This document shows, in pieces, positions 27,512-46,702 of a stretch of 64,000 nucleotides of DNA (position 1 is its first letter; each line of letters starts with the position of its first letter). This DNA comes from Myxococcales bacterium. GTDB taxonomy: Bacteria > Myxococcota_A > Polyangia > Polyangiales > Houyiibacteriaceae. The notes beneath the pieces are model-generated. The model was not told the origin of the DNA, made no database searches, and saw only the letters and a list, made by a program, of their open reading frames with translations. The stretch spans positions 1-64,000 of the forward strand of contig JAOTYL010000012.1 in the NCBI GenBank assembly GCA_029861865.1, written 5' to 3'. The translations under genes were made by a program, and so were the position numbers.

Positions 27512-27531
27512 AAGAAGGGACTGTCCTTCTT
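27512..27531. repeat. Palindromic repeat copy 5 (variant)
   Basis: AAGAAGGGACTGTCCTTCTT, a compensated variant of the family: both arms changed from GGGG/CCCC towards GAAGG/CCTTC so that pairing is kept. It lies between the DUF1552 stop and the dehydrogenase gene, supplying the TT of the dehydrogenase TAA stop (27530-27532, minus strand). Confidence 0.85.
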
Positions 27532-28549
27532 AGACGGCGCCGGTGGCTTCTAGGTGCTGACAGGTGCGCTCGATGCCTTCATCGACGCTGACGGACGGGT
27601 TGTAGCCGAGGTCTCGGCGAGCTTTTTCGATGCTGAAGTAGTGGTGCGTGCACATGTACCGGATCGCGAAGCGCGTGAGACCGTCTTCTGCATTCAACGT
27701 GCCCCCTTTTAGCGTGTCGATGCCCTCTTTCACAGCAGCGATTGCGTAGACCAGCGACTTGGGTGCGCGATACTTGATCGGGGGGAACCCGAGGCGTGCT
27801 GCGACCTTCCGGACGAAGTCCCAAAACGGCATCGGCTCGCCATTGGTAATGAAATAAGCCTGCCCGGCGGCTACGCTCTCGAGGCCGTCGTTGGCCAGCG
27901 CTTCGTCGGCGAGGATCACCGCATCGATCAGGTTAGTCACATAGGTGTAGTCCGAGAGCCAAACGCCTCGACCTACCTGAACGCGCAGCCGTCCCGATCT
28001 TGCTTGGTTGAGAAGGGCCGGCATGAAGCGTCGGTCACCGGGGCCAAAGACGACGTGGGGCCTGAGCGCCGTGGTCGCGACTCCACCCTTTCTGTTCGCA
28101 GAAAGGACATACTTTTCCGCGGCGATCTTGCTGTCGGCGTAGGGCGCTTGCGAAACCGACGAGTACGGCAAGCTTTCATCGCCGTTCTCGATGTCCTTTC
28201 CCTCGTAGACGACGCTCCCTGAGCTGATGTACACGAACCGTTTGACGCCATGTTGCTGGGCAGCCTCGAGCATGTTCTTGGTGCCGCCTAGATTCACCGC
28301 CCACACGAAGTCTTTCTTGTTCTGCTTGGTATGCACGATCGAGGCGTTGTGGATGATTGTGTCCACACCCTTGCAGGCCTCCATGACAGCGGCCTTGTCG
28401 GTGATGTCGATCCGTCGGTACTCGGCCCCCTGGACGGGGCATTCCTCCGCCAAGTCGATCGCGATGACCTCGTCGCCGCGAGCCTCGAGGGCGCGGGCGA
28501 TCTCGGCGCCGACGAACCCGCAGGCGCCCGTAACCAAGCTGACCGTCAT
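27530..28549 (-). CDS. NSDHL/ERG26-like 3-beta-hydroxysteroid dehydrogenase, C4-decarboxylating
   Basis: 339 residues of an extended SDR. Cofactor motif TGACGFVG (7-14) and catalytic Tyr137/Lys141 in PYADSKIAAEK. The sequence (IIHNASIVHTKQNKKDFVWAVNLGGTKNMLEAAQQHGVKRFVYISSGSVVY) follows the 3-beta-HSD/sterol-4-alpha-carboxylate 3-dehydrogenase family. In sterol synthesis this enzyme oxidises the 3-hydroxyl and releases the C4 carboxyl as CO2. It lies 3 bases downstream of a sterol-desaturase-type hydroxylase, the enzyme that would supply the C4 carboxylate. Hopanoid or other steroid substrates are alternatives. Confidence 0.85.
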   Translation of the reverse strand: MTVSLVTGACGFVGAEIARALEARGDEVIAIDLAEECPVQGAEYRRIDITDKAAVMEACKGVDTIIHNASIVHTKQNKKDFVWAVNLGGTKNMLEAAQQHGVKRFVYISSGSVVYEGKDIENGDESLPYSSVSQAPYADSKIAAEKYVLSANRKGGVATTALRPHVVFGPGDRRFMPALLNQARSGRLRVQVGRGVWLSDYTYVTNLIDAVILADEALANDGLESVAAGQAYFITNGEPMPFWDFVRKVAARLGFPPIKYRAPKSLVYAIAAVKEGIDTLKGGTLNAEDGLTRFAIRYMCTHHYFSIEKARRDLGYNPSVSVDEGIERTCQHLEATGAV

Positions 28550-28552
28550 GGT

Positions 28553-29227
28553 CTACTCCACGGTGCCGAAGATGATGTCGGGCAGTGGCGTGATCGACGC
28601 GTAGTTGCCGGAGATCATGCTGTGATGGTGCCGGTCGTGTTTGGCCGCGAGGATGCCCAAAGTCCTGACGGGGAAGCGCGGAATGTCGACGCCGGCATGG
28701 TTCAGAATGTTGAAGGCGGTGTACGTGATGAACAACAATGCAAGTGTGTAGAGATGCACGCCGCCCACGAGCGCGACCGAGCCGAAGAACAACGAGAGCC
28801 CCATGAAAGTCTCGATCGGATGAAGCAGCAGACTGTCGATGACGCGAGGATTGCGGGCGGCATGATGCACAGAATGGACCCCGCGGAGGATTCTCCACTC
28901 GTGGAAGAGGAATCGATGCATGAAGTAGTACCCGAAGTCGTATAGCAAGATGACAGTCGCGGCTTCGAGAGCGAAGCGCCAAGCGGGGATGGCATGATCG
29001 TAATAGAGGTAGTCGCCTAGGCCGTACATCACTGAGAAGATCAAGGTGATCGAGACCGTGGTGTTCAGGATGACCCTAGAGCGGAGCTCACGATCGGTTG
29101 CCGATCGGTGTGGATCGTCGCTGATCAGGAACTCTTGTGCGCGCTTGGAGCGGTACGCGTAGAGCAAGAGCGCGATCGCGAGGCCGGCTGAAGCGTAGCT
29201 CGCGAGAATGACGATGAGGACCTTCAT
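28553..29227 (-). CDS. Sterol desaturase/C4-methyl oxidase-like fatty acid hydroxylase
   Basis: 224 residues, membrane di-iron enzyme of the fatty acid hydroxylase superfamily. The histidine clusters are HRFLFH (104-109), HSVHH (118-122), NILNHAG (His177) and HDRHHH (197-202). Four hydrophobic segments surround them. This family includes ERG25/SMO (C4-methyl oxidation), C5-desaturases and alkane/carotenoid hydroxylases. The neighbouring NSDHL-like gene makes C4-methyl oxidase the best guess, but family similarity alone cannot decide. It needs an electron donor, possibly the reductase 27 bases upstream. Confidence 0.82.
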   Translation of the reverse strand: MKVLIVILASYASAGLAIALLLYAYRSKRAQEFLISDDPHRSATDRELRSRVILNTTVSITLIFSVMYGLGDYLYYDHAIPAWRFALEAATVILLYDFGYYFMHRFLFHEWRILRGVHSVHHAARNPRVIDSLLLHPIETFMGLSLFFGSVALVGGVHLYTLALLFITYTAFNILNHAGVDIPRFPVRTLGILAAKHDRHHHSMISGNYASITPLPDIIFGTVE

Positions 29228-29254: not shown

Positions 29255-30418
29255 CTAGTGCACCAATCTGAGAACTAGCGTGCCGGCGACCATGAACGCG
29301 AACACCGCGGCCGCCGCCAGCTGCGAAACACGCCTGCCGTACGAGGACTTAACCGCAGACGCCGTGCGAAACGAGGTGGAATCGGCGTCGAGCTCGAGTG
29401 GCTCGCTGCTCGCCGGGATGCTTTGGCAGAGGAGCGCAACCCCCCTTGCGATGTCTCGTTCGGAAAGCGCCTCGTGCGTTCGCATGTAGACCCGGCCGGT
29501 CCTGACGTGAGCCATGCACGAGCCGCAGTAACCGGACTCGCACGAGTGCCCAGGGTTCAAGCTGGCCGCCTGGGCACATTCGAGCAATGTCTTGCCCCGC
29601 ACGTAGGGAACCGACCGCGACCGGCCGTCGAGCCAAAGGCTGAACTTCGGGGGCGACTCGAAGGACTGGACATCTACGAGGCCGCGCTCTACCTGGTCGG
29701 GATCGGCAGGTGAGACGAATCGCTCGACGTACACCAGTTCTTCGTGCACGCCTGCTTCGTCGAGAGCGTCTTCGACGAGCTCGATGAACGCAGCTGGACC
29801 GCAGATGTAGAACTCGCCGATGTCGGTGTCATGCAAGTGCGACCGCAACTCGTCGCGGCTGAGATATCCGCTCGCGGAGTCGTAGTGATGGTGGACGACC
29901 AGGCGTTCCGAGTGCTCCCCGACGAGTCGATCGACCTCGTCTGCGTAGATCACCGAGTCGGGGCGCTGGTTTGCATAGACGAGGGTGATCGTTCGTTTGG
30001 TGGTGGCCAACGCGCTCTTGAGGAGGGAAATGATCGGGGTAATCCCGCTCCCGCCTGCGAACAGAAACAATGGAGCACCGTGGCGCGTCTCAGGGTCGAG
30101 AACGAAGCGTCCCTCGGGCACACTCGCACGAATCTTGTCACCAACTGCGAGATTGTCGTTCATCCAGTTCGAGACGCGACCGCCTTCGACTCGCTTGACG
30201 GCGATTTTCAGGGGCTCATCGAGGTCTGGGCAGCTCGACAGGGAGTAGCACCGCGTGACCTCGTGACCTTCCCATGGGAGCTCGAAGGTGAGATGCTGCC
30301 CGGCTCTGTAACGATACGCCTCGCGCAGCTCGGGCGGAACCCAAAGCTCGAACGAGGCACAGTCCGCGGTCTCTCGAGTCACGGCCGTAATCTCCAGCTC
30401 ATGAAGCTCGACGGTCAC
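29255..30418 (-). CDS. Ferredoxin reductase with [2Fe-2S] domain and C-terminal membrane anchor
   Basis: 387 residues from GTG 30418, which overlaps the TetR stop as GTGA. FAD motif RCYS (56-59), NAD motif GGSGITP (122-128) and YICGP (204-208), then a plant-type 2Fe-2S domain with Cys293, Cys298, Cys301 and Cys331. This is the arrangement of phenylacetate/KshB-type oxygenase reductases. Unusually, a hydrophobic helix at 366-385 (QLAAAAVFAFMVAGTLVLRL) follows the iron-sulfur domain. It may tether the protein to the membrane to serve the di-iron hydroxylase downstream, as cytochrome b5 does for ERG25. Confidence 0.88.
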   Translation of the reverse strand: MTVELHELEITAVTRETADCASFELWVPPELREAYRYRAGQHLTFELPWEGHEVTRCYSLSSCPDLDEPLKIAVKRVEGGRVSNWMNDNLAVGDKIRASVPEGRFVLDPETRHGAPLFLFAGGSGITPIISLLKSALATTKRTITLVYANQRPDSVIYADEVDRLVGEHSERLVVHHHYDSASGYLSRDELRSHLHDTDIGEFYICGPAAFIELVEDALDEAGVHEELVYVERFVSPADPDQVERGLVDVQSFESPPKFSLWLDGRSRSVPYVRGKTLLECAQAASLNPGHSCESGYCGSCMAHVRTGRVYMRTHEALSERDIARGVALLCQSIPASSEPLELDADSTSFRTASAVKSSYGRRVSQLAAAAVFAFMVAGTLVLRLVH

Positions 30419-31104
30419 GAGGCGTCTCCAAGGCCTGCCGATTCGAGCACCGAGGCGAGCCGCTCGGGTCTGCAGTAGCTCCGAAGCATGTGTCGGATCG
30501 CCTGATCTGTGACGTGCTTGGCATCCTGCTTGCAGCCGCGATCCATCCACATCGCAAGCCTCACCTGTTGGGAAACGATTACGATTCTCGCCATCAGCTC
30601 TGGATCGTCGTCGATCAGGTAACCATCTTCGATGCAACGTCGAAGGATGTCGGCGAAAAGCTGCAAGCCAGCGCCGAGCGCCTCTACTTGCTCAGGGCTT
30701 CGAAGAAGCTCGATCGTCGACCACGCGGTGACTTCTTTGAGCTGCATTCGCAGGAAGTCGCGACGCTTCATGAAGAACGCGAGCTGCATCCTGGTTCCGG
30801 CGATCAGCATCTCGATCGACGGGGCATCCTCTTGGAGAATCCCTTGGGCAAGCACCATGACCTCGCTCAGCCGGCGGCGATTGACGGCCCGGTAGATCTC
30901 CCACTTCGATTCGAAGACGCTGTAGAGCGTGGTCAGCGATACCCCCGCCTCGGCCGCCACCCGCTGGACCTTGGTGGCCTCGTAACCCACCTCGCCAAAC
31001 ACACGCTCGGCCGAATCGAGGATGGCCTCGCGATAGAGGTCTCGCTTCTTGTCTTTGAGGCTTTTCCGCGCTTTTGGCGCGATTTCTGCTGTTGGCATCA
31101 ACAT
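30415..31104 (-). CDS. TetR-family regulator heading the hydroxylase/dehydrogenase operon
   Basis: 229 residues. N-terminal HTH (REAILDSAERVFGEVGYEATKVQRVAAEAGVSLTTLYSVFESK, about 25-70) and a ligand-binding C-terminal domain. The start is ATG 31104, or the in-frame ATG 31098. It is first in an operon of TetR, ferredoxin reductase, C4-oxidase-like and NSDHL-like genes, with GTGA coupling to the second gene. It probably represses its own operon and responds to a lipid-like ligand; this is inference from family and context. Confidence 0.9.
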   Translation of the reverse strand: MLMPTAEIAPKARKSLKDKKRDLYREAILDSAERVFGEVGYEATKVQRVAAEAGVSLTTLYSVFESKWEIYRAVNRRRLSEVMVLAQGILQEDAPSIEMLIAGTRMQLAFFMKRRDFLRMQLKEVTAWSTIELLRSPEQVEALGAGLQLFADILRRCIEDGYLIDDDPELMARIVIVSQQVRLAMWMDRGCKQDAKHVTDQAIRHMLRSYCRPERLASVLESAGLGDAS

Positions 31105-34117: not shown

Positions 34118-35416
34118 ATGGCGGAGCGTGCTACGCGACGCAACCCGGTGGGACACCGAGCTTCTGCCGCGCGTCGGTCCCAAGTGTCAGCCCCGCCGCC
34201 ACATCGCACCCGCTTCATCCGCCTGCTGAACAGGATCGGAGGCGTGATGGCGCCCCGCTGGCCGTCGCTCGAACCGAACAGCATCATCCGCACCGCTGCA
34301 CGCAAAGCCAAGTCTGATCATTTTGGCGACGACGGCTTCTTGGAGGCGCTTCCGGTTTTTCTCGATATGGTCGATCGTGAGGCACAGCTGACGTGGATCG
34401 GTCGAGTGGCCTGCCGCCAATCGCTCACCATGGCCCTAGAGAGTCGCTTCGGCATTTACCGGCATCGTGCACGGCATCCGGAGATCGTAGGCGTGCCGAT
34501 CGACCGGCCCCTCTTCATCGTTGGTTTCCCTCGGACTGGGACCACCATCTTGTTCAACCTTCTCGCCCAGGATCCAGCGAACCGAGCGCCACTCGGCTGG
34601 GAAACCCAGTTTCCCAACCCACCACCGGAGACCGCGACTTGTGCGACCGATACTCGCATCGAAAAGGCGCGCAGGTACTTCGGCCAGATGGATGCGATGG
34701 CACCTTCGTTGGCGTCGATTCACGAGGTGGGCGCCGAGCTTCCCCAAGAGTGCATGCCGATCCTGGCACACAGCATGCTGAGCCCTCAGGCGAGCATCGC
34801 GTTCAATGTGCCGAGCTATCAAGACTGGGTCGACGAGCAGGATGCAGCACCGGCCTACACCTACCATCGGCATTTTCTAGAGCACCTTCAAAGTCGCCAC
34901 ATGAAGGATCGGTGGGTGCTGAAGAGCCCCGTACACCTCGCAACCCTCGATGCCCTGCTCGACGAGTATCCCGATGCCCGGCTGATCTTCACGCACCGAG
35001 ATCCTGCGAAGACGATCCCATCGCTTGCGAGCCTGGTCTACACCGTCAGGGGGATCGTCACCGATGCAGTCGATCCGAAGAAGGTCGGCCCAGAGCAACT
35101 CGAGTGGTGGGCCAAGTCGCTCGACCACGCGATGAAAGTGCGCGATCGGCACGCGGACAAGAGCGACCAATTCATGGACATTCAGTTTGAAGAGGTGATC
35201 GCCGATCCGGTTGCTGCGCTCGCACGGGCGTACGAGCACTTCGGCATTCCGTGGTCGGACGAAGCCGAAAGCCGCATGCGAAGGTTTGTGGCCGACAATC
35301 CGCACGGAAAGCATGGCGCGCATCGCTACGAGCTCGAAGATTTTGGGATCGAGCTCGACCTCATCCGCGAGCGGTTCGCCGACTACTGTCGAAGGTACGG
35401 CATTACTCTCGACTGA
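34118..35416 (+). CDS. Sulfotransferase (Sulfotransf_3 type)
   Basis: About 432 residues from ATG 34118; GTG 34184 is a possible later start and neither has a strong ribosome site. The PAPS loop is FPRTGTT (137-143), and the second binding region is LIFTHRDPAKTIPS (near 290-303). An N-terminal helical extension (SIIRTAARKAKSDHFGDDGF) is typical of this bacterial group. The acceptor is unknown. It precedes an aldehyde dehydrogenase on the same strand by 59 bases. Confidence 0.88.
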   Translation: MAERATRRNPVGHRASAARRSQVSAPPPHRTRFIRLLNRIGGVMAPRWPSLEPNSIIRTAARKAKSDHFGDDGFLEALPVFLDMVDREAQLTWIGRVACRQSLTMALESRFGIYRHRARHPEIVGVPIDRPLFIVGFPRTGTTILFNLLAQDPANRAPLGWETQFPNPPPETATCATDTRIEKARRYFGQMDAMAPSLASIHEVGAELPQECMPILAHSMLSPQASIAFNVPSYQDWVDEQDAAPAYTYHRHFLEHLQSRHMKDRWVLKSPVHLATLDALLDEYPDARLIFTHRDPAKTIPSLASLVYTVRGIVTDAVDPKKVGPEQLEWWAKSLDHAMKVRDRHADKSDQFMDIQFEEVIADPVAALARAYEHFGIPWSDEAESRMRRFVADNPHGKHGAHRYELEDFGIELDLIRERFADYCRRYGITLD

Positions 35417-35475: not shown

Positions 35476-37068
35476 ATGACTGTTCCGGTGCACGTGCAGC
35501 GCGGAGCGGCAGCCGCCGAAAAGCCGACCCACATCCCTTGCGTCGACCCCGCGACTAAAGAAAGACTCGGTGACATTCGCATCGACACCCCTGCCGATGT
35601 CGACGCCGCAGTCGCGCGTGCGAAAGTAGCCCAACGCGACTGGCGCCAGACTTCTTTTGAAGAGCGGCGCGCGGTGTTGCGCAGGTTGCTGGCGTACACC
35701 GTCGACAACAAAGACGAGATCTGCCTGACCATTCAACGCGACTCGGGCAAGACCCGCGAAAACGCACTCATCGGAGAGATCTGGACCACCTGCGAGAAGT
35801 TTCGGTGGATGATCAACAACGGCGAGAGACACCTTCGCCCTGAACGAGTGTCATCCGGGTTGCTCGTGCACAAAAAGGCGCGACTCGAATTCCATCCACT
35901 CGGTGTCGTTGCTTCGATCATTCCTTGGAACTACCCATTTCAGAACATCGTCAACCCGATCATTCCAGCGTTGATGGCTGGCAATGCGATTGTGATCAAG
36001 CCTTCCGAGTGGGTGGCCTGGTCGAGCGCACGATTCATCCAAGCGTTTCGAGGAGTGATCGAACAGGCCGGACACAATCCGGACCTGATTCAGTCGGTGC
36101 AAGGGTATGGGGCGACGGGCGCCGCACTTGTCCGCTCCGCGGTCGATACAATCGTCTTCATCGGCTCGGTCGAAAATGGACGACGCGTCATCGAGGGCAG
36201 CGCAAAGCGCACGACACCGGTGGTGATGGAGCTCGGCGGGAAGGACGCCTTCATCGTATGCGACGATGCTGATCTCGAACAGGCGGTTCATGCCGCGCTC
36301 GCCGGTTGCTATGTCAACTGCGGTCAGAACTGCGTCGCCTCCGAGCGGCTCCTAGTGCATGACGCCATCTACCAGGCCTTCGAAAGGCGTGCCGCTGAGC
36401 TCGTCAGAGGCTTTCGACAGGGCAACGGCCGCGAGGCGATTGTCGACGTTGGCGCGATCGTCACGCCGCTTCAGCTCGAGATCATCGAAAAAGCGGTCGA
36501 CGGGGCGATCGCCCAAGGGGCACGTCTGGTGGCTGGCGGCAAGCGAACGCTCACGGACCAAGGCGACTATTTCGAGCCGACGATCCTCGCCGATGTCACG
36601 CCCGACATGGAAATCGCACGAGACGAAGTGTTTGGCCCGATCATGCTTCTCATGCGCGTTCGCGACGACGAACAGGCGGTCGAGATCGCAAACGGCGTTT
36701 CTTACGGGCTTTCGTCTTCCGTTTTCTCGAAGAATCGTTCTCGCGCCCGGAAAATCGCATCGCAGCTCGAAGCGGGGATGAGTGCGATCAACGAGTTTGG
36801 CGGGATCACCTACATGGCTCAGGACCTAACGTTCGGCGGTGTCAAAGCATCGGGCTACGGGCGGATGAACGGGCGAGAGGGGCTGCGATCGATGTGCAAC
36901 ATCAAAGCGGTCATCGACGATCGACTCCCGATCAACCGAGCCAACAAATTGTTCCCGGTCCCTCCGAAGCTCTACGGCACGTTTAGCGGGGTCATCGACC
37001 TGGTCTACGGACGAGGATTGGCGCGACGGTGGCGCGGACTGGTGAAGCTGCTTAGTCGTAAGCCATGA
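35476..37068 (+). CDS. Aldehyde dehydrogenase
   Basis: 530 residues of an NAD(P)-dependent aldehyde dehydrogenase. IIPWNYPF (Asn152), VIKPSEW, the general base Glu252 in ELGGKDAF and the nucleophile Cys286 in GQNCVASER are all present. A C-terminal extension of about 40 residues (VPPKLYGTFSGVIDLVYGRGLARRWRGLVKLL) is amphipathic, suggesting membrane contact as in fatty aldehyde dehydrogenases. The stop overlaps the GMC oxidoreductase start as ATGA. An alcohol-to-acid conversion by the pair is plausible. Confidence 0.94.
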   Translation: MTVPVHVQRGAAAAEKPTHIPCVDPATKERLGDIRIDTPADVDAAVARAKVAQRDWRQTSFEERRAVLRRLLAYTVDNKDEICLTIQRDSGKTRENALIGEIWTTCEKFRWMINNGERHLRPERVSSGLLVHKKARLEFHPLGVVASIIPWNYPFQNIVNPIIPALMAGNAIVIKPSEWVAWSSARFIQAFRGVIEQAGHNPDLIQSVQGYGATGAALVRSAVDTIVFIGSVENGRRVIEGSAKRTTPVVMELGGKDAFIVCDDADLEQAVHAALAGCYVNCGQNCVASERLLVHDAIYQAFERRAAELVRGFRQGNGREAIVDVGAIVTPLQLEIIEKAVDGAIAQGARLVAGGKRTLTDQGDYFEPTILADVTPDMEIARDEVFGPIMLLMRVRDDEQAVEIANGVSYGLSSSVFSKNRSRARKIASQLEAGMSAINEFGGITYMAQDLTFGGVKASGYGRMNGREGLRSMCNIKAVIDDRLPINRANKLFPVPPKLYGTFSGVIDLVYGRGLARRWRGLVKLLSRKP

Positions 37069-38654
37069 GCGACGCCTTCGACTACATCGTGGTCGGCGGC
37101 GGTTCCGCCGGTTGTATCGTCGCGGCCGAGCTTGCAAAGGACTCGCGTGCGCGGGTGCTCTTGCTCGAAGCAGGCCCGACCGCGGAGGAACACCCCGAGA
37201 CGCTGGTCGCTAGCGGGTACAAGGAGGCGTTCATCAATGACGCCGTGATGGGAGAACGCTTTTCCGTGCCCCAAGATCACGCTGCCAAGCAGCGCGTGTT
37301 CGCAGGCACTGGAACGGTGATGGGCGGGAGCGGATCGGTGAACGGCATGGTCTACACGCGCGGGGCTCGCGAAGACTACGCGCAATGGCCCGACGGGTGG
37401 CATTGGGACGACAACCTCGCCGATTTCGAAGCGATCGAAGAGATCCTCCGCCCGCATCAGCGACCTCCCACCCTGTGGACCGAAGCCTGCATCGCGTCGG
37501 CTGAGGAAAACGGGTTCGAACGCAAGGAAGACCTCAACGATGGCAACATGAGCAATGTCATCGGCTACGAATGGATGTCGTACGAAGGCGATGAGCGTCG
37601 AAGCTCTTACGTGGCCTTCATCAAGGATGCGGGAGCGCGCGAGAACCTCACCGTACTGCCCGAAGCACGCGCTCACAGGGTCGTCTTCACGTCGGACAAA
37701 CGCGCGCGGGCTGTCGAGTTCGAGCACGAAGGAGAGTTGAAGCGTGCCGCGGCCGAGCGACAAATCGTTTTGTGCGCCGGGGCGCTCGAAACTCCGAAGC
37801 TTCTGCTTCTTTCAGGCATCGGGCCGAGTGAGCACCTACGCGCGTTCGACATTCCGATCGTGGCCGACCGTCCCTGCGTTGGAAGTGGCCTTCACGATCA
37901 TCCGAATGTCCCGATCTTCTTCAAAGCGAGTAGACACATCGATTGCTTCTACCCTCAGCTCTACAGCTTCTATCGAACCAATCAGGACAGTGACCTTCCC
38001 CCTTCACAAAGCGACACGTGCTACGTTTATTGGCCGGCACCCTCCGCCATGAAGCAGATGGCGCAGCGCATGCTTCCACCGCAAGTCATTCCTCACGGGT
38101 TCTACGGACCGCGTTCGAGGGCGATGGTCCGCGGCATGATCGGCGCGGCGTTCAAAGTCGGTGCGCTCCAGCGTTTTACCGATCGCATGTTCGGGATCAT
38201 CTTGATTCTGGGCAAGCCCAAGAGCCGCGGCACACTCCGATTGCAATCGACGCACGTGACTGAGCAAGCGCTGATCGACCCCGCCTATTACTCCAACGAA
38301 GAGGACATGGACACGATGATCGAGGGAGTTCGCGTCGCTAGACGGATCGGCAACGCAACGAGCCTCACGGCATGGGGCGCAAAAGAGCTGATGCCGGGCA
38401 AGCGGGTAACGAGCGATCAGGCCATCGCAAAGTACGTACGCAAGAACACGATCACGACCTATCACTTTGCCGGATCATGTGGCATGGGGGTGTGCGATTC
38501 CGACGCGGTGGATACGGAGCTGCGTCTTCGGGGCGTGACCGGCCTCCGAGTAGCCGATGCATCGGTGATCCCCTGGACTCCGGTTTCAGCGCTCAACGCG
38601 CCGAGCATGTTGATCGGCTATCGCGCCGCACGACTCATCCGCAATGCGCGATGA
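37065..38654 (+). CDS. GMC-family FAD-dependent oxidoreductase
   Basis: 529 residues. FAD-binding YIVVGGGSAGCIVAAELA at the N-terminus, GTGTVMGGSGSVNGMVYTRG (GMC signature 1), CAGALETPKLLLLSGIGP (signature 2), and the C-terminal YHFAGSCGMG ... ASVIPWTPVSALNAPSMLIGYRAA with the catalytic His. It oxidises an alcohol, transferring electrons to FAD and then oxygen or an acceptor. Translationally coupled to the aldehyde dehydrogenase. Related enzymes include choline dehydrogenase and cholesterol oxidase-like proteins. Confidence 0.94.
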   Translation: MSDAFDYIVVGGGSAGCIVAAELAKDSRARVLLLEAGPTAEEHPETLVASGYKEAFINDAVMGERFSVPQDHAAKQRVFAGTGTVMGGSGSVNGMVYTRGAREDYAQWPDGWHWDDNLADFEAIEEILRPHQRPPTLWTEACIASAEENGFERKEDLNDGNMSNVIGYEWMSYEGDERRSSYVAFIKDAGARENLTVLPEARAHRVVFTSDKRARAVEFEHEGELKRAAAERQIVLCAGALETPKLLLLSGIGPSEHLRAFDIPIVADRPCVGSGLHDHPNVPIFFKASRHIDCFYPQLYSFYRTNQDSDLPPSQSDTCYVYWPAPSAMKQMAQRMLPPQVIPHGFYGPRSRAMVRGMIGAAFKVGALQRFTDRMFGIILILGKPKSRGTLRLQSTHVTEQALIDPAYYSNEEDMDTMIEGVRVARRIGNATSLTAWGAKELMPGKRVTSDQAIAKYVRKNTITTYHFAGSCGMGVCDSDAVDTELRLRGVTGLRVADASVIPWTPVSALNAPSMLIGYRAARLIRNAR

Positions 38655-38746: not shown

Positions 38747-39829
38747 CTAAGGTCGCGCACGGGCGGTGTAGAGGGGCAGATCGAGGATCGACAGCACGCC
38801 GGGCTCGGCCGCACAAACTGCAGGGATCGCATTGACGACCCGCATCGCCGTTCCCGTGACGATACCGGTGTTGTGATCCCCGTCGTCGCCTTTGAGATCG
38901 ATCTCGCAGTTGAACTCGGGGGAGCCCTTGATCTCGATGCGGTATCCGGACTTGTCGCCACTCAGCCGCTCCCAATGTGGCGCGATATCTCCCCGCAGGC
39001 GCTGCGTGTGGGACGAAATCACGACCGGGCGACCATCGCTGATCCCTCGAACCTCGAAACGCACGCCGGCGCACATGCCCTTCTTGATGACGCCCATGTC
39101 GGTGTTGAACGATTCCGGTGCGGGCGCACGCTCGCTGTCTTCGCGGATCTCGTCGAGCTCGAAGCCCAACGCGTCGGCGACGAGCTCGATCACGCTGCCC
39201 CAGCCGGCCTTCATGGCGCCCGGGTAGAACATCGGGGCTTTGAAATCGAGTGGGTGGCCGAAGCCAAAGAACTCGCCGGTGAAGCTCGGGTCTGCGTAGG
39301 TCGAGTAGTCCATTATCTCCGCCACGCGCACCGAATCGACACGCTCACACCCGGCCGTGAGGATCAGCGGGATCAGGTCTCCCGTGAAACCCGGGTCGAA
39401 ACCAGAGGTAAAAAAGCTGACGTGATTTGCGGCGCAGGCCTCAGAGAGCGGGCCGGTGAGCTTCTTGCTAGCAAACGGTGGATAGACCATCGACACTACG
39501 GCCGTGTTGGCGATGTTCTTTCCCGAGCTCAAGATTCTTAGCCAGTCATCGAGCGCCTCGTAAACCCGGGTCTCGCCAATCGCCATGTAACAGACACAAT
39601 CGGCATCGATCGACAAGAGGGCTCCGGCGTCGTTGGTGGCGATGATCCCAGTCATTTTGTCGAGGCCACAAAGCTCGGCGGCATCCTTGCCGACCTTGTC
39701 CTCCGAGTGCGCATGGACCCCGACGAGCTCGAGGTCGGGATGGCTCACAATGCCGCGCAGGGCGCGGTACCCGGTGTTGCCAGTTCCCCATTGGATCACG
39801 CGCAGCGGCTTGTTCGCGTGAGCCGTCAT
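38747..39829 (-). CDS. DapB-like NAD(P)-dependent reductase/dehydrogenase
   Basis: 360 residues. The N-terminal Rossmann motif VIQWGTGNTGYRALRGI and C-terminal domain resemble the dihydrodipicolinate reductase-like group of mycobacteria and other steroid degraders, and 2,4-diaminopentanoate dehydrogenase. The lysine-biosynthesis catalytic HxxxHH is not apparent, so it is unlikely to be DapB itself. It starts two bases after the extradiol dioxygenase stop and is probably co-transcribed with it. Substrate unknown. Confidence 0.85.
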   Translation of the reverse strand: MTAHANKPLRVIQWGTGNTGYRALRGIVSHPDLELVGVHAHSEDKVGKDAAELCGLDKMTGIIATNDAGALLSIDADCVCYMAIGETRVYEALDDWLRILSSGKNIANTAVVSMVYPPFASKKLTGPLSEACAANHVSFFTSGFDPGFTGDLIPLILTAGCERVDSVRVAEIMDYSTYADPSFTGEFFGFGHPLDFKAPMFYPGAMKAGWGSVIELVADALGFELDEIREDSERAPAPESFNTDMGVIKKGMCAGVRFEVRGISDGRPVVISSHTQRLRGDIAPHWERLSGDKSGYRIEIKGSPEFNCEIDLKGDDGDHNTGIVTGTAMRVVNAIPAVCAAEPGVLSILDLPLYTARARP

Positions 39830-39831: not shown

Positions 39832-40755
39832 TCAGTCTTTCTTTTCTCGCTCTCGTTTCGCGTCGCGGTAGGCCTTAGTCAGAAGCTGCGGCGGATGGTG
39901 CCCCCACTCGCTCACGATGCCATGCGTGGTGGGCTCCCATGTCTCGTCGTCGACCTCGACGCCACCGTAGCCAAACTCGAAGTGGAACCCCGAAGGGGTG
40001 TACCCGTAGAACGAGAACATCTTGTCGTTAGGATGACGTCCGAGGGTTTGGTGCACCATCCCGCCAGAGAACAGGAAGCGATCGTAGCAGAGCCCTACCT
40101 CATCCATCGCTCGTGCCTGGACCATGAAGTGATGAATGCGCTTGCCGTGCCCCTCGCCAAAGGCGAACGAATGGTGTCGCGGGTTGGCGTGCATGAAGGT
40201 CACGTCGATCTTGTGGCCGAAGTACTCGCAGCGGATGTAGTCGCTCAGCCTGAGCCCGAGCATGTTCGCATAGAAGGCTTCGTGCTCCTCCGCGTTCTTG
40301 GAGGCGACAACCACATGGCCGAGGCCCTGCGCGCTAGCGACGAATCCCGAGCGAACGACCTCCGAGACGAAGGGCTCGTCTGCCATCTTCGGACCATGGT
40401 AGAGCTCGCATGGGTTGCCCGCCGGATCTTCGAACCGAACGAGCGCATCGACGTTTCGACGTGCGGTGTCTTCGGCTGTGCCGCGTATCACTTCGTGGCC
40501 GGCGGCTTCCAAACGCCCGACGATGCTTTCGAGCGCTTCAGGGCCTTCGACTTCCCAACCTACCGCGGCGAGGTCGTCCGCGGCCCCTGGTTGGATGAAA
40601 AAGCGCTGAAAATGCTCGTCCATGCGCAGTCCGAAGCCCTGCTGGCCCCTGTCGCCGACGATCTCGAGGCCCAGGATTTTCGTGCCGAAGTCCCTCCATG
40701 CAGCGAGGTCGCTCACCTCGAAGACCAGGTACCCCAACTGCAACACGCGGCTCAT
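39832..40755 (-). CDS. Extradiol ring-cleavage dioxygenase (BphC/HsaC-like)
   Basis: 307 residues from ATG 40755 (GGAGG seven bases upstream). A two-module vicinal-oxygen-chelate fold. Ferrous iron ligands fall at His147, His209 and Glu260, and the second-shell residues His195, His241 and Tyr250 are also present. These are almost exactly the positions in BphC-type enzymes. HsaC cleaves 3,4-DHSA in cholesterol ring degradation. It therefore probably opens a catechol ring of an aromatic or steroid metabolite. A DapB-like reductase follows. Confidence 0.88.
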   Translation of the reverse strand: MSRVLQLGYLVFEVSDLAAWRDFGTKILGLEIVGDRGQQGFGLRMDEHFQRFFIQPGAADDLAAVGWEVEGPEALESIVGRLEAAGHEVIRGTAEDTARRNVDALVRFEDPAGNPCELYHGPKMADEPFVSEVVRSGFVASAQGLGHVVVASKNAEEHEAFYANMLGLRLSDYIRCEYFGHKIDVTFMHANPRHHSFAFGEGHGKRIHHFMVQARAMDEVGLCYDRFLFSGGMVHQTLGRHPNDKMFSFYGYTPSGFHFEFGYGGVEVDDETWEPTTHGIVSEWGHHPPQLLTKAYRDAKREREKKD

Positions 40756-40816
40756 TTGCTTTGCCTCCGCGCTGAGCATAGTACGTCGCTACAGTCTCGC
40801 ACGGAGAAAGGAAACC

Positions 40817-41590
40817 ATGAAGGAGCTCCTGGACCTTCGAGAGAAGGTAGTCGTCGTCACGGGCGGCACGATGGGCGCTGGGAAAGGGATCGCACTTCGA
40901 TTCCTCGAGATGGGAGCCCACGTGATCATCTGTGCGCGTAACCAGCCCGGGGCACCGATCGCGGTAGACGGCCGCGAGGCGCTCTTCATTCCCGCGAATG
41001 TGCGCGAGCTCGAAGACCTCGACCGGGTGATCGAGGAGGCGACGACACGCCATGGCCGCCTCGACGTGCTCATCAACAACGCGGGCGGTTCTCCTCCCGC
41101 AGATGCAGCAACGGCTTCACCTCGGTTTTCAGCTGCGATCATCGATCTCAATTTGACCGCGCCCCTCAACTTCGCTCAGAAGGCAAACGCCGTCATGCAG
41201 CAGCAAGATGATGGCGGCTGCATCATCAACATTGGAAGCGTAAGCGGCCTCCGTCCCTCACCCGAGACGGCCGCGTATGGAGCAGCCAAAGCCGGGCTGC
41301 TCAACTTGACGACATCGCTCGCGGTGGAGTGGGCGCCCAAGGTTCGCGTCAATGCGGTGGCGGCTGGGATGATTCTTACCGAGAAGGCAGAGCTACATTT
41401 CGGCGAGGGAGAGGTCCGAGAGGCCATCGAGAAGACCGCGCCGATGGGACGGATGGCGCTCCCACGAGACATCGCCGATGTGTGCCTCTTCCTCGCTTCG
41501 CCACTTGCGAGCTACGTCACCGGCGCCACCATCCTTCTTCATGGCGGGGGCGAATGGCCGGCGTTTCTAAGGGCTTCCAAGGGGGCGTGA
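40817..41590 (+). CDS. SDR-family oxidoreductase
   Basis: 257 residues from ATG 40817 (AAAGGA upstream). Cofactor motif TGGTMGAGKGIA (15-26), INNAGG and IINIGSVSG are present, with catalytic YGAAKAG. The ending (PRDIADVCLFLASPLASYVTGATILLHGGGEWPA) is typical of classical FabG-like SDRs. It is divergent from the dioxygenase (61 bases between starts) and lies 81 bases before the EXPERA-like gene. Confidence 0.92.
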   Translation: MKELLDLREKVVVVTGGTMGAGKGIALRFLEMGAHVIICARNQPGAPIAVDGREALFIPANVRELEDLDRVIEEATTRHGRLDVLINNAGGSPPADAATASPRFSAAIIDLNLTAPLNFAQKANAVMQQQDDGGCIINIGSVSGLRPSPETAAYGAAKAGLLNLTTSLAVEWAPKVRVNAVAAGMILTEKAELHFGEGEVREAIEKTAPMGRMALPRDIADVCLFLASPLASYVTGATILLHGGGEWPAFLRASKGA

Positions 41591-41671
41591 GCCTGCTCGC
41601 GGTTCTGCATCGCTCCCCGGCCCCGTTGCTGCTTGCAGAATCGAGCTGGAAACGGCACTTTCGCAAGCCAA

Positions 41672-42406
41672 ATGGAATCTGACCTTCAAACCACGCTCGC
41701 CGTCGACGGCGACCAGGAACAGGCGCGCGGGCTCGCGATCCCGGCGTGGACTTTCATGATCGCCTTCATCGTCGGCGGCACCTTGTTTCACATCTGGCTG
41801 CACCGGACCGTGCGCGAGACGTACAACGTCCACCAAATCGGCCTGATCTTCTTTTTGATGGTGAACCTTCTGGTGAACTTCTGGGAGATCGGTCTCTTCG
41901 TCTGCCGCGACCAGATCCGCGACGAATACGAGGCCACCAAAGACGCATATCGTGGGCGCGAAGCCGATCGCTTCAGCGAGATGTTTCAAAAGCGCATCCC
42001 GGTGTTGAGGCTGCTCTCGTTCAGGCAGTGGACCGAAGTTTGGTCGAGCTATGCGCTCTTCGACCCAGGCTATGCGAGCCGAAGCTCCTTCGGCTTCAAC
42101 ATCGACTTCGGCAATGGCTGGTCTACCCCGATTTTCGCGACACTCTTCGCCTTTGGCATGACGTTCGAGCTCATGCCCGCGCGCATCCTCGGCATCATCG
42201 GCGTGATCATGTTCTGGCAGATGTTCTACGGAACCGTGGTTTACTTCTTTCAGTTCTTCAACGCCGGGCGACACAAAGGCCACTCCCCGGGCACGTTGGC
42301 GTTGTTCATCGGCACGAGCAACGGCCTCTGGTTCATCTTTCCACTCTGGGGCCTCGCCCTCAGCATCCAAATGATCCTGAACGACTCGTACACCCTATTC
42401 CTCTAA
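41672..42406 (+). CDS. EXPERA/EBP-like membrane protein, candidate sterol Delta8-Delta7 isomerase
   Basis: 244 residues from ATG 41672, with five hydrophobic segments. The last third, QMFYGTVVYFFQFFNAGRHKGH then FIGTSNGLWFIFPLWGLALS, follows the spacing of human EBP (Gln-X2-Tyr-Gly, Tyr-Phe, Gly-His, Asn-X-Leu-Trp-X3-Pro). The first helices (FWEIGLFVCRD) include a Glu at the position of an EBP active-site acid, but the preceding His is not in register. EBP shifts the sterol C8 double bond. It lies tail to tail with the cycloeucalenol cycloisomerase gene. Assignment is by pattern and context. Confidence 0.6.
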   Translation: MESDLQTTLAVDGDQEQARGLAIPAWTFMIAFIVGGTLFHIWLHRTVRETYNVHQIGLIFFLMVNLLVNFWEIGLFVCRDQIRDEYEATKDAYRGREADRFSEMFQKRIPVLRLLSFRQWTEVWSSYALFDPGYASRSSFGFNIDFGNGWSTPIFATLFAFGMTFELMPARILGIIGVIMFWQMFYGTVVYFFQFFNAGRHKGHSPGTLALFIGTSNGLWFIFPLWGLALSIQMILNDSYTLFL

Positions 42407-42427
42407 AAAGGGGACAGTCCCCTTTTT
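42405..42427. repeat. Palindromic repeat copy 7, bridging two convergent stops
   Basis: Five A, GGGGACAGTCCCC, five T. The first two A belong to the TAA stop of the EXPERA-like gene (42404-42406) and the last T to the TGA stop of the cycloisomerase gene (42427-42429). It fills the whole intergenic gap and would make an ideal bidirectional terminator. Confidence 0.92.
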
Positions 42428-43221
42428 CAGATCGGGCCGAAGATCGCCGCAGCGAAGTCCAACAGAAACAACATGATGAGGCCCGCCGTGCAAGCCGCCC
42501 CCGCCGTCATCGTCAAGCTCCAGCTCGTGCTCGGCTTCTCGTCCAAGTGATAGAAAATCGGAAAGCTCGCGATGAAGTAGAGCGAATAGAAAAGCGATCC
42601 GTAGGCCAGCATGCGGTCGATGTCTTTGTAGTGAAACTGAGTGGCGATCAACGGGTTTGCCATCGCCCGTGTCTCGATCCACGCCCAAGAATAGGCGACA
42701 ACGACGACTAGCACCGGCCACATGATCGTGCCGAAGGGAAGCCTCGAGGTGCGGAGTCGGCGTAACACGATGATCGCCGTGGTGTGATAGGTCATGAAGA
42801 ACGCTTGGGTCAGGAGATACATGACTATCGGGACGCGTTGTTCTCCCGAGCCTACGAGTGTGGCATCGAGATTGAGCTCGATCATCGGGTAGTCGTAGAC
42901 CATGCCGAGAATGTCGAAGAAGTACTCCGAGCCAAAGTAGTTTGCGGCAAAGCTGAAGATCGCGATGTAGAGATTCGCCTTGAACCAATACGTCTGGTAC
43001 CAGGCTCTACCGAGTGGTCTTTCGTCACGAATCAGTGCTGGCACGACCATCAAAGGAAGTGCCACAGCCAACCCAGTGATGAAGAAGCCCCACTCCTCGA
43101 TACGGTTGGTGATGCCGAGAGCCATCACCAGGCCGATCAGGGCCATCCAGATCGGTGAATAGATCAGAAAAAACTTTTCGCCCCACGCCTTACTCGGGTT
43201 CTCGGAAAACCAACGCGCCAT
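42427..43221 (-). CDS. Cycloeucalenol cycloisomerase (CPI1 homologue)
   Basis: 264 residues with six to seven membrane segments. It follows plant CPI1 along its length: ENPSKAWGEKFFLIYSPIWM (start), YWFKANLYIAIFSFAANYFG, HTTAIIVLRRLRTS, MLAYGSLFYSLYFIASFPIF, YHLDEKPSTSWSL and the C-terminal FLLDFAAAIFGPI. CPI1 opens the 9-beta,19-cyclopropane ring of cycloeucalenol to give obtusifoliol in plant sterol synthesis. Here it is the last gene of a TetR, CYP51, NTF2-like operon, nine bases after the previous stop. A bacterial substrate could be a cycloartenol-derived sterol. Confidence 0.92.
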   Translation of the reverse strand: MARWFSENPSKAWGEKFFLIYSPIWMALIGLVMALGITNRIEEWGFFITGLAVALPLMVVPALIRDERPLGRAWYQTYWFKANLYIAIFSFAANYFGSEYFFDILGMVYDYPMIELNLDATLVGSGEQRVPIVMYLLTQAFFMTYHTTAIIVLRRLRTSRLPFGTIMWPVLVVVVAYSWAWIETRAMANPLIATQFHYKDIDRMLAYGSLFYSLYFIASFPIFYHLDEKPSTSWSLTMTAGAACTAGLIMLFLLDFAAAIFGPI

Positions 43222-43230
43222 CGGTCGTAG

Positions 43231-43833
43231 CTATCCAAACAACGCGATTCGTACGAGCGCCTGAAAATTCTTCAGCTTTTCCAACCTGCCGGGCTCTTTA
43301 CGGATACGCTCGTGGCCTGGCAGCATCTCGCCTTTTGCCTGGCGGTGGATCTTCTCCTTGATCGTCGCGTTGAGATGTCCGGCCCCCGCAAGCTCGAAGA
43401 AGACCGCTTTCGTGTTACCAAAATCGAAGAAGTCGCGCTGCCAGCTCCACTTGTAGTCGCCTGCGTACTTGAACCACGAACCGCCCACCCCAGAGATCTC
43501 ATAGTCCGTGCCGTCCGGCCGCTTGAAAGGAGCGACCTGTCGCCAGAATCCAACCACCTGCCCCTGTTTGTCGTCGATCAAAACGGTTTCGTAGGGATAC
43601 GCCCACTCCTCGAATCCACGCATGTGATAACCGAGTGCGACCTCTTTGATCTCCTGAAGGCCGCGCGCCCAAAACTCCTCGTTTGGACCGACATTCCAGC
43701 GGTAGACGGCGTCGTGGGTATAGTGAGCGCCGAGATGGGTGCTCCAGTCGCCCTCCCGTTCGGCGTTGCGGTTTGCTTCGAGCCACCGCTTCATCATTTC
43801 TTCGAGCTCTTCACGCGGGAACGCGGGCATCAT
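43231..43833 (-). CDS. NTF2/SnoaL-like protein
   Basis: 200 residues with the cone-shaped NTF2-like pattern: EELEEMMKRWLEANRNAEREGDWSTHLGAHYTHDAVYRWN, GLQEIKEVALGYHMRGFEEWAYPYETVLID and GFWRQVAPFKRPDG. In such proteins a hydrophobic pocket binds steroids or polyketides (as ketosteroid isomerase and SnoaL). It sits between CYP51 and the cycloisomerase in the same operon, so a sterol-binding or isomerase role is plausible. The TGA of CYP51 ends one base before its ATG. Confidence 0.8.
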   Translation of the reverse strand: MMPAFPREELEEMMKRWLEANRNAEREGDWSTHLGAHYTHDAVYRWNVGPNEEFWARGLQEIKEVALGYHMRGFEEWAYPYETVLIDDKQGQVVGFWRQVAPFKRPDGTDYEISGVGGSWFKYAGDYKWSWQRDFFDFGNTKAVFFELAGAGHLNATIKEKIHRQAKGEMLPGHERIRKEPGRLEKLKNFQALVRIALFG

Positions 43834-43834
43834 C

Positions 43835-45211
43835 TCATCCTCTCTGACCCTTGCGGTAGCGCACGTGGATCGGGGGCTTGGGCCCGAGCACGACGCGTTC
43901 GAAGTCGGTAGTGATCGGGTCGCCGACGAGCTCGAAGTCGTAGTTGTTGAGCAGGACAGCCATGATGGTCTTCATCTGCAAGAGCGCAAAAGCATTGCCC
44001 AAGCATTTGTGGCGACCACCACCGAAAGACACGTAGGCGAATGGCACCCGGTCCTCTTCGCGGCCCGGTCCATAGCGCTCGGGGTCGTATTCGAGAGCGT
44101 TCCGGAACACCGCGTCTTCGCGGTGGGCGACGATCGGCGACACCGACACCCAGTCACCCTTCTTGATCTGATAACCGAGGATCTCGCAGTCCTGCATCGC
44201 AGCCCGGAAGAGCATGAAGAGCGGAGGATGAATGCGTAGGGCCTCCTTGATTGCCCATTCGGTCCTCTCGAGGTCGCGCATGGCGGAGAAGCCATACTCC
44301 TCGCTGTCGGCGAAGCGGTCGCGCACCTCTGCACAGACCTTGGCGTAATAATCGGGCGCGCGTAACAGCTCGAGCAGCGACCATGCGGTCGTGACCGAGC
44401 TCGTGTGATGGCCCGCAAACATGTTGGCGATCAGAATCCCGGTGATCTCGTGGTTGGTCAGCATCGACCCATCCGAGTATTTCGACTCCATCAAGGTCTG
44501 GGTGAAATCCTCGCCGGAAATGCCGCTCGTTCTGCGTCGTTCGACGATGGTCGAGACCATCTCGCCGAGTCGCTTCCGGGCAGCGTCTCGCTTTCGAAAC
44601 GCTGGAATGGGCAAATGCGCGTTGATGTACGCGATGGGCACGATCCCCGCTTCAAGATCGGCGTATACTCGTGCGAACTCTTCGCTCATCTCGTTTCGAA
44701 ACTCTTCCCCGAGAAGGCAGCGGCTGGACGTGAAGCTCGTCAACGTTCCAAAAAACCCGCAGACCTCGATCTGACCGGTGTCGCCCCAGTCCGCGATCAT
44801 CTGGTTGGTTTCGTCGGCGATAATGTCGGTGTACGTTCGCATGCGGTTCTGGCGAAGGGCGGGGTGCATCATGTGCAACTGCTCGTACATTCGCTCTGGA
44901 GTCGTGTCGTAAACGACCCCCTTGCCGAAGACGGGAATCATCATTTTGTAGGCTTCAGTGGGGCTCAACACCTCGTCGGGAAGCCGGAAGAGTGACTCGT
45001 GAGCCTCCGGCCCCGTGAAAAGGGTCACGCTCTTGCCAAACAGCTTGAACTGGGCCACCCGTCCGCATTCGTCGTACGCCCGCTGCAGGAGACCCACCGG
45101 ATCGCGTGCGAAATCGATGGTGTGGCCGATGAAAGGAAACCCGCCCTCGAGTCGAGGGGGCTTCCTGAGCACGGTGGACGCTGTGGTACGGGCTCGTGCA
45201 GTCGTCGTCAT
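43835..45211 (-). CDS. cyp51: Sterol 14-alpha-demethylase CYP51
   Basis: 458 residues. The CYP51 BC-loop signature is clear in AYKMMIPVFGKGVVYDTTPERM. The I-helix is FAGHHTSS (265-272), as in Mycobacterium CYP51 (GHHTSS instead of the generic AGxDT). The ExxR is in KEALRIHPPL, and the haem loop is FGGGRHKCLG (396-405) with Cys403. There is no N-terminal membrane anchor, so it is soluble like bacterial CYP51s. It removes the C14 methyl in three steps and needs ferredoxin and a reductase. The start overlaps the TetR stop as ATGA. Confidence 0.94.
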   Translation of the reverse strand: MTTTARARTTASTVLRKPPRLEGGFPFIGHTIDFARDPVGLLQRAYDECGRVAQFKLFGKSVTLFTGPEAHESLFRLPDEVLSPTEAYKMMIPVFGKGVVYDTTPERMYEQLHMMHPALRQNRMRTYTDIIADETNQMIADWGDTGQIEVCGFFGTLTSFTSSRCLLGEEFRNEMSEEFARVYADLEAGIVPIAYINAHLPIPAFRKRDAARKRLGEMVSTIVERRRTSGISGEDFTQTLMESKYSDGSMLTNHEITGILIANMFAGHHTSSVTTAWSLLELLRAPDYYAKVCAEVRDRFADSEEYGFSAMRDLERTEWAIKEALRIHPPLFMLFRAAMQDCEILGYQIKKGDWVSVSPIVAHREDAVFRNALEYDPERYGPGREEDRVPFAYVSFGGGRHKCLGNAFALLQMKTIMAVLLNNYDFELVGDPITTDFERVVLGPKPPIHVRYRKGQRG

Positions 45212-45831
45212 CCGTTCCCCTTGATGAGAATTCGTTCGAGCTGCTGCTCCACCTCATCGGCCAGGTCGTCCGCATCGACCTTCATGCCTGCCTCGACCCA
45301 TGCCGAGATCAACACCTGCTGGATGGCAACCATGAGGCGCGCCTGGATCACCGGATCGCCTTCGAAGACATCGCCGTCGCACATCGCTTCTTCGATGACG
45401 CGCGCGATCAAACCGATGCCACGTTGCCATGCGCTGACCAGCCCTTCCCCGACCTCCTGCGGATTGGATGCCCACGCACCACTGCTGTGGAGATGAATGC
45501 GAAGATAGTCGGGGTGCTCCGTCAGCCAGCATATGAAAACTCGATTCCCTTGCCTCAAGCGGGTTGCGGCCTTGTCGTGGGTCCCGAGCGCTCTACCGGC
45601 GAGCTGAAACAGCTGGCCGAGGCGATCGTCGTGGACGGCATCCAAGATGTCGGACTTGCCCTCGAACACGGAGTAGAGCGTGCCGAGGGACAGCCCAGAC
45701 TCCGCCGCGATGTCTTGGATCTTCGCCCCTTCGTAACCGCGCGATGCGAACAGCCGTTCGGCGGCGTCCACGATCAGCGAGCGATACATCGTCGTCTTGG
45801 CGCTTCGGGCTCTGGCCGCGGCTTGTGACAT
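45208..45831 (-). CDS. TetR-family regulator heading the CYP51 operon
   Basis: 207 residues. HTH in RSLIVDAAERLFASRGYEGAKIQDIAAESGLSLGTLYSVFEGKSDI (about 17-62); the LSLGTLYSVFEGK recognition helix is close to that of the TetR at 30415. AAGGG lies upstream of its ATG. GAATACGATTC, a GAAT/ATTC inverted repeat at 45849-45859, lies just before it and is a candidate operator. It probably regulates its own operon (CYP51, NTF2-like, cycloisomerase) in response to a sterol or lipid. Confidence 0.9.
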   Translation of the reverse strand: MSQAAARARSAKTTMYRSLIVDAAERLFASRGYEGAKIQDIAAESGLSLGTLYSVFEGKSDILDAVHDDRLGQLFQLAGRALGTHDKAATRLRQGNRVFICWLTEHPDYLRIHLHSSGAWASNPQEVGEGLVSAWQRGIGLIARVIEEAMCDGDVFEGDPVIQARLMVAIQQVLISAWVEAGMKVDADDLADEVEQQLERILIKGNG

Positions 45832-45888: not shown

Positions 45889-45906
45889 AAAAGGGGACTG
45901 TCCCCT
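45889..45906. repeat. Palindromic repeat copy 8
   Basis: AAAAGGGGACTGTCCCCT, followed by ATT. The CCCCTA end supplies the CTA (TAG) stop of the CPBP-family gene (45905-45907, minus strand). On its other side is the leader of the TetR/CYP51 operon. Confidence 0.9.
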
Positions 45907-46702
45907 ATTTGCAGGGGCCTTCGCCGGGGGGTGGGCAATAGCCGATGGCGAGCCAGTCCATCGTCATGGCGACCCCGACGTGAATGACGACGCCCCCCCA
46001 GATCGAGCGGAGGCGCATCGCGAGGGTGCCGAGGGCGATGCCAGCAAGGATGGCACCGAGGGTTTCGGGGATAGGCTTCGGGTAGTGGATCATGCAGTAG
46101 GGCACGATCATCACGAAGATCGCACCATAGCCAAACTTGTGACTCAACCCCTTGAGCATGTAACCACGGAAGAAGAACTCGAGGGCCATGAACTGGAGAG
46201 CGTACAACGCCTGCCAGCGAAGAAAGTGCCCCAACGATTGATTGGCGTACTTGTAAAAAGGATAGGTGTGCTGAAAAGAATCGAACTGGGATACGAAGAG
46301 CACGAACGGAAGCACGAGCAGGTAGAGGCCGATGTAGATCCACATGTGCTTGATGAAACCGCGAAACGAAATGAAGTAGTCCCGCACGCGCTCGCCAGGC
46401 ATTAGCCAGATCGTGATGACCGGGATCACCACGTACGTGATGCATCGGACGAAAGTCCACCAGGCTCGAATCATCAAATCCCAATCCTCTTTCGCATAGG
46501 CTTTCCGCCCGTCGGGAATCAAGCTCGAAAAGGTACTCGCGCCGCCGTAGTAGCGGGCGAGGGTCAGGGTGATGGCTGTAGTGACGAGCACCACGATCGG
46601 GCGCCAATCAAATCGTTCGCTCCGAGCGGTGTCGGCCTGGGCTTCTGCCTCCCGCCAAGAATCGAGGAAAATCCGGCTGAAAAGCCGGCTAAAGATGTTC
46701 AT
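45905..46702 (-). CDS. CPBP (CAAX protease/bacteriocin-processing) family membrane protein
   Basis: 265 residues from ATG 46702, with about six hydrophobic segments. Motif 1 is LEFFFRG; the family usually has EExxxR, so the first Glu is replaced by Leu. Motif 2 is [15 protein letters not shown], and a His follows in VVIHVGVAM. The altered motif leaves proteolytic activity in doubt. Function unknown. The gene ends at a palindromic repeat. Confidence 0.82.

Follow-up and report, generated by a model that had tools for sequence, protein, structure and literature searches.

A gene island with CYP51 and a cycloeucalenol cycloisomerase homologue in a myxobacterial genome: a candidate front end for degradation of methylated and cyclopropyl sterols

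Why would a bacterium carry a homologue of the plant enzyme cycloeucalenol cycloisomerase (CPI1) in one operon with the sterol 14α-demethylase CYP51? The question is raised by a stretch of 64,000 nucleotides from a Myxococcales bacterium (assembly GCA_029861865.1, contig JAOTYL010000012.1, positions 1 to 64,000), hereafter the window. Its minus strand holds four open reading frames (ORFs) that encode, in reading order, a TetR-family regulator, CYP51, an NTF2-like protein, and a CPI1-like protein (operon 1; Table 1). An earlier note on this DNA had described four packed minus-strand genes with an ATGA overlap, and the ORF list and the sequence agree with that description and its coordinates. 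We propose that operon 1 and its neighbors form an island that probably trims exogenous C4/C14-methylated and cyclopropyl sterols, of plant or algal origin, ahead of 9,10-seco steroid degradation. The genes, their families, the conserved neighborhood, and the co-occurrence with degradation genes instead of cyclases are directly established.

The window CYP51 is a member of the CYP51 family by sequence, as the earlier note had concluded from a BC-loop signature and the GHHTSS motif. It matches the Pfam p450 model (Table 1), its leading matches in the Protein Data Bank (PDB) are all CYP51 enzymes, the top one at 451 bits, and it contains the BC-loop (YKMMIPVFGKGVVYD), GHHTS (GHHTSS), ExxR (EALR), and heme-cysteine (FGGGRHKCLG) motifs. 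Its predicted reaction is 14α-demethylation of lanosterol or obtusifoliol.

The NTF2-like gene between CYP51 and CPI1 had been guessed to encode a third sterol enzyme, and this guess has gained support. Work from 2026 established an NTF2-superfamily protein of M. capsulatus as an 8,14-sterol reductase (8,14-Bsr) that acts right after CYP51, with pocket residues Y37, Y43, Y78, Y80, D133, and D136 (PMC13277303). Matched by position, all six are found in the window protein at an offset of +1 (Y38, Y44, Y79, Y81, D134, and D137). Across 33 NTF2-like homologues, five of the pocket residues are invariant and position 38 is Y or F, an exchange that is functional at that pocket site; the reaction itself has been demonstrated in homologues only (PMC13277303). 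The gene is thus a match to 8,14-Bsr, and the corresponding activity is predicted for its product. A phmmer search of the PDB with this protein returned no relative. In one congener (G018, locus L160 11805-12403) the Bsr gene is split across two frames, by assembly error or decay. The usual layout of a CYP51/Bsr pair has a ferredoxin fused to or co-localized with the partner CYP51. The window CYP51 has no fused ferredoxin and there is no ferredoxin gene within the operon, the nearest Fer2 gene noticed being at 4352-4732; a fused ferredoxin is present on the CYP51 of one relative (L083). This ferredoxin-free layout concerns the usual arrangement of such pairs and has no bearing on Bsr activity.

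The earlier note had named the last gene a homologue of plant CPI1, and the comparison bears this out: over 270 columns covering its full length, the window protein is 36% identical (E 3e-51) to a sequence taken as that of Arabidopsis CPI1. That plant reference is provisional and was drawn up with the window protein already in view. No Pfam or NCBIfam model matches the CPI1-like protein, and whether either database holds a CPI1 model was not established. The gene is present in 17 of the 19 genomes of the genus, this one included, at 75-89% identity except in G017, which yielded just a fragment of 60 residues interrupted by a stop; outside the genus, identities are about 48-62% in Gammaproteobacteria, Zavarzinia, and Chloroflexota. 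Because it is conserved in the genus and in other phyla, the gene is not a chance ORF. None of the plasmids searched has a CPI1 homologue, and they gave only three NTF2 matches. An AlphaFold2 model of the protein is confident (predicted local distance difference test [pLDDT] score 92.5, predicted template-modeling score 0.92); Foldseek and VIA-align comparisons of this model with the PDB gave no convincing match (best E 0.58, best Z 4.4), which does not by itself show a new fold. In a 61-sequence alignment, the acidic residues E183, D227, and E228 are kept in most bacterial members and in the provisional plant sequence. In a tree, the latter sits on a long branch (1.86), and its placement among the bacterial sequences is left uninterpreted.

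Homology predicts that this protein opens the 9β,19-cyclopropane ring. It is possible, although unlikely, that the bacterial protein has instead drifted to another sterol reaction, such as double-bond isomerization, or to binding, and does not open the ring. The modest identity to the plant enzyme would allow such drift, as would the fact that catalytic residues have not been established and that no solved relative was found. Opposed to it are the full-length alignment, the conserved acidic residues, and the linkage to CYP51, the step that follows CPI1 in plants.

A protein that opens the ring could serve synthesis or breakdown of sterols, and the other genes of this genome and its relatives bear on the choice. 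On contig C5 of this genome, separate from the island, genes for oxidosqualene cyclase (OSC), squalene epoxidase, squalene synthase, and the mevalonate pathway (HMGR) lie together. The earlier note had tied its proposal, a de novo cycloartenol-type route, to the presence of squalene epoxidase and OSC, and both are encoded. The cyclase, with the segment HGWPVSDCTAE, has A/H/V at the diagnostic sites in place of the cycloartenol-type residues (Tyr at 381/410, Ile at 453/481). Wei et al. 2016 (PMC4919349) found lanosterol wherever a bacterium that they tested had valine at that site; because the enzyme has V453 and lacks Tyr410, this rule predicts that it is lanosterol-type. Among 18 congeners, a cyclase above cut-off is found in four (G002, G010, G011, and G012), and the homologous cyclase clusters of G002 and G012 include a CYP51 of their own. 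The remaining 14 have no cyclase above cut-off (a weak sub-threshold match in G004, none in the rest). Of these 14, 10 retain CYP51 as well as CPI1, and five of those 10 genomes are 95-100% complete.

Steroid-degradation genes are also present. One contig of this genome carries HsaA together with HsaD- and HsaE/F/G-type, KshA-family, lipid-transfer, and thiolase genes. The best PDB match of the HsaA protein is the 3-HSA hydroxylase 2rfq (1.1e-94), and the genome has seven PF19298 matches (best 1.2e-51) of the KshA oxygenase family. Near operon 1 lies an HsaC-like gene, whose PDB matches include M. tuberculosis 2zi8 (9.5e-59). Within the genus, HsaA scores at least 344 bits in 16 of the 19 genomes.

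The CYP51-Bsr-CPI1 module is found again in Gammaproteobacteria and Zavarzinia, the complete HdN1 genome among them; outside the genus it occurs almost wholly in genomes free of OSC, most of which have steroid-degradation genes. Our sample of 50 CPI1-bearing genomes consists of those reached from named loci, and 33 of them, again including HdN1, have no cyclase match. HsaA reaches at least 280 bits in 22 of the 40 CPI1-bearing genomes tested, and none of these 22 has an OSC-type cyclase; conversely, HsaA is found in none of the 10 that do have one. KshA_C, which marks KshA-family oxygenases, was found in 30 of 31 genomes tested. Five Myxococcota outside the genus with Bsr and a strong CPI1 (G195, G475, G492, G445, and G306) all lack an OSC-type cyclase, and HsaA reaches at least 435 bits in four of the five. 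In two genomes with Bsr and a distant CPI1 type (G026 and G110), the cyclase is lanosterol-type and HsaA is absent. Chloroflexota have CPI1 homologues at 56-57% identity (L060 10001-10792 and L064 10001-10792) with neither CYP51 nor Bsr nearby, and HsaA is absent from both genomes.

Another explanation to consider is salvage, in which exogenous sterols are remodeled for membranes and not degraded. Uptake and modification without a cyclase would leave the identical pattern of island genes, and Δ8(14) sterols are normal in methanotrophs (PMC13277303). We regard salvage as improbable, since this genome encodes HsaA, HsaD, and KshA-family proteins and has the HsaC-like gene next to the operon, and since HsaA occurs in most genomes with the cassette. 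De novo synthesis, in which the bacterium would make a cyclopropyl sterol and finish it with CPI1, CYP51, and Bsr, is the least probable alternative, for although it has in its favor the grouped genes of contig C5 and the CYP51 within the clusters of G002 and G012, it is opposed by the predicted lanosterol-type cyclase, the many congeners that keep CYP51 and CPI1 but no cyclase, the distance of the island from the cyclase cluster, and the same module in the complete, cyclase-free HdN1. The gene identities of the earlier note, and its guess of a third enzyme, stand, and its cycloartenol route is not supported.

The degradative role that we favor has several observations weighing against it. Given the synthesis genes of contig C5 and the presence of a single strong CYP51 in this genome, the island could act on the organism's own sterols as well. 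Its HsaA scores 420 bits, just under the NCBIfam cut-off of 450, and its KshA-family candidates reach at most 177 bits compared with 276-284 bits in Zavarzinia. Several congeners keep CYP51 followed by CPI1 without Bsr. An OSC-type cyclase and HsaA are both missing from eight of the 40 CPI1-bearing genomes, and all genome counts treat relatives as independent even though they share ancestry. Finally, the hydroxylase proposed below as a candidate for C4 oxidation is only 29-37% identical between clusters.

How would the island process a sterol? A second TetR-headed operon (operon 2; 27530-31104) and a pair of genes for an aldehyde dehydrogenase (ALDH) and a GMC oxidoreductase lie 4-15 kb from operon 1. 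The enzymatic steps in this organism, their order, the catabolic direction, and the ligands of the regulators are inferred from homology and context. CPI1 would open the 9β,19-cyclopropane ring to give a Δ8 sterol, CYP51 would take off the 14α-methyl group to give a Δ8,14 diene, and 8,14-Bsr would reduce the diene to a Δ8(14) sterol. The hydroxylase and reductase of operon 2 may then oxidize one C4 methyl group, which GMC and ALDH could carry to the acid. The NSDHL-like enzyme would decarboxylate this C4 acid to the 3-ketone, in which form the sterol enters ring degradation. Sterols or steroids are the probable ligands of the TetR regulators, and the operon-2 TetR shares 35% identity with its operon-1 counterpart from one congener. 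Among solved members of its family, the NSDHL-like protein most resembles NSDHL: human NSDHL (6jkg, 1.7e-40) is its top PDB match, and the next is at 8e-22. The operon-2 reductase scores 234 bits against the PaaE model TIGR02160, under the cut-off. In named Gammaproteobacteria and Zavarzinia genomes, the distance from the GMC, ALDH, hydroxylase, and NSDHL homologues to CYP51, Bsr, and CPI1 is often no more than 10 kb; genomes with the same cluster include HdN1, Ketobacter, Zavarzinia marina, Stenotrophobium, Stagnimonas, and others. Identity between clusters is 50-57% for NSDHL, 48-55% for ALDH, and 45-53% for GMC.

The island resembles several known systems without coinciding with any of them. 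The CYP51/8,14-Bsr pairs of Methylococcaceae, Mycobacteriales, and Sandaracinus (Lee, Giner, Welander 2026, PMC13277303) likewise have CYP51 adjoining an NTF2 protein with the same six residues, and they occur in both sterol makers and sterol degraders. Here, in contrast, a CPI1 homologue follows Bsr, C4-processing genes are near, and no ferredoxin is fused or adjacent; CPI1 goes unmentioned in that paper. The CPI1-like protein shares with plant CPI1 its length and multi-helix membrane build, in addition to the identity given above, but it is bacterial, stands in an operon with CYP51, and occurs mostly in cyclase-free genomes, with its activity predicted. Eukaryotic C4 demethylation (ERG25/SMO, ERG26/NSDHL, and ERG27) also combines a hydroxylase-superfamily oxygenase with an NSDHL-like decarboxylase; the island adds ALDH, GMC, and a flavin/2Fe-2S reductase, and membership of its hydroxylase in the SMO subfamily is not established. 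The bacterial SdmA/SdmB/SdmC proteins perform the same chemical task, including in Myxococcota (PMC10202945). SdmA is a Rieske oxygenase, however, whereas the island has a di-iron hydroxylase and its decarboxylase reaches 78 bits where the NCBIfam SdmB model requires 600. The literature consulted on bacterial C4 demethylation concerns Sdm proteins, with no complete set of the eukaryotic type reported (PMC10202945, PMC4919349). What sets the island apart from 9,10-seco steroid degradation, for which this genome has HsaA, HsaD, HsaC-like, KshA-family, and side-chain-type genes, is an additional front end for nuclei with C4/C14 methyl groups or a cyclopropane ring.

We lean, with some reserve, toward a broader reading: an undescribed catabolic front end in Myxococcota, Gammaproteobacteria, and Alphaproteobacteria, in which bacteria would digest scavenged cycloartenol-type and other C4/C14-methylated sterols with enzymes homologous to those of late sterol synthesis in eukaryotes (CPI1, CYP51, and the NSDHL-like protein). 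No report of a plant-type cyclopropane-ring opener in bacteria was found in the open-access literature, which is weak as proof of absence. Why sterol degraders such as mycobacteria retain CYP51 is a question that has been raised anew (PMC13277303), and the cluster offers a testable answer: methyl removal and cyclopropane opening would make plant and algal sterols degradable. If this is true, CYP51 has a role in sterol-degrading bacteria that do not synthesize sterols. The cluster also cautions against reading CYP51 or CPI1 alone as a sign that a bacterium makes sterols. Structural work on the CPI1 family, for which we found no solved relative, could start from a bacterial member.

Other lineages may use CPI1 differently. 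Nannocystis (L097, L101-L103, L105, and L106) has CPI1 homologues of 38-40% identity, and the two cyclases read look lanosterol-type. In a Polyangiaceae metagenome-assembled genome (G191, L113 8583-10666), CYP51 adjoins a distant CPI1, and the genome encodes a cycloartenol-type cyclase (Y/H/I) elsewhere, which makes it a candidate for a true bacterial cycloartenol-to-sterol route. Biosynthetic use of CPI1 in other lineages is therefore plausible.

Table 1. Features of the island and its surroundings in the window
Feature	Coordinates	Strand	Evidence
TetR-family regulator, first in operon 1	45208..45831	-	PF00440 3.9e-13; ATGA overlap with CYP51
CYP51, sterol 14α-demethylase family, 458 aa	43835..45211	-	4-base ATGA overlap with TetR; p450 2.3e-67
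NTF2-like protein	43231..43833	-	six 8,14-Bsr pocket residues in register; weak SnoaL_2 match
CPI1 (cycloeucalenol cycloisomerase) homologue, all-helical membrane protein	42427..43221	-	homology to provisional plant CPI1 sequence; 61-sequence alignment; AlphaFold2 model
Second TetR-family regulator, first in operon 2	30415..31104	-	PF00440 3.2e-13
FAD/NAD/2Fe-2S oxygenase reductase, PaaE/KshB type, start inferred	29255..30418	-	PF00970, PF00175, PF00111; GTGA overlap with TetR
Fatty-acid-hydroxylase-superfamily di-iron oxygenase, candidate C4-methyl oxidase	28553..29227	-	PF04116 5e-25; His boxes HRFLFH, HSVHH, HDRHH
NSDHL-like putative C4-decarboxylase, 3β-HSD family	27530..28549	-	PF01073 4.7e-63
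Aldehyde dehydrogenase, candidate oxidase of C4 aldehyde	35476..37068	+	PF00171 1.2e-132
GMC oxidoreductase, candidate oxidase of C4 hydroxymethyl	37065..38654	+	PF00732/PF05199; overlaps ALDH gene
DAP_DH_C-domain dehydrogenase	38747..39829	-	PF19328 4.3e-22
HsaC/BphC-type extradiol ring-cleavage dioxygenase	39832..40779	-	TIGR03213 292 bits, HsaC NF045631 244 bits, both under cut-off
SDR oxidoreductase, start inferred	40817..41590	+	NF005893 366 bits
Convergent membrane protein, conserved near CPI1 in genus	41633..42406	+	57-94% identity in congeners
Palindrome AAAAGGGGACAGTCCCCTTTT	42406..42426	.	immediately 3' of CPI1 stop codon
Same palindrome, second copy	45889..45909	.	upstream of TetR gene

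Among the neighbors, the convergent membrane protein has no Pfam or NCBIfam match, and many of its polar residues are invariant. A likeness to EBP/EXPERA proteins was considered by eye (N230-x-x-W233); its predicted model is poor (pLDDT 58), and we make no such claim. A sulfotransferase-family gene at 34070-35416 of the window lies between the two operons, and sterol conjugation is a possible function. The TetR-CYP51-Bsr-CPI1 operon is framed by two copies of a 21-base palindrome (AAAAGGGGACWGTCCCCTTTT), which, allowing up to three mismatches, occurs seven times in the window (starts at 1667, 1745, 4333, 5903, 32416, 42406, and 45889) compared with zero expected, and may be a dispersed terminator or repeat element.

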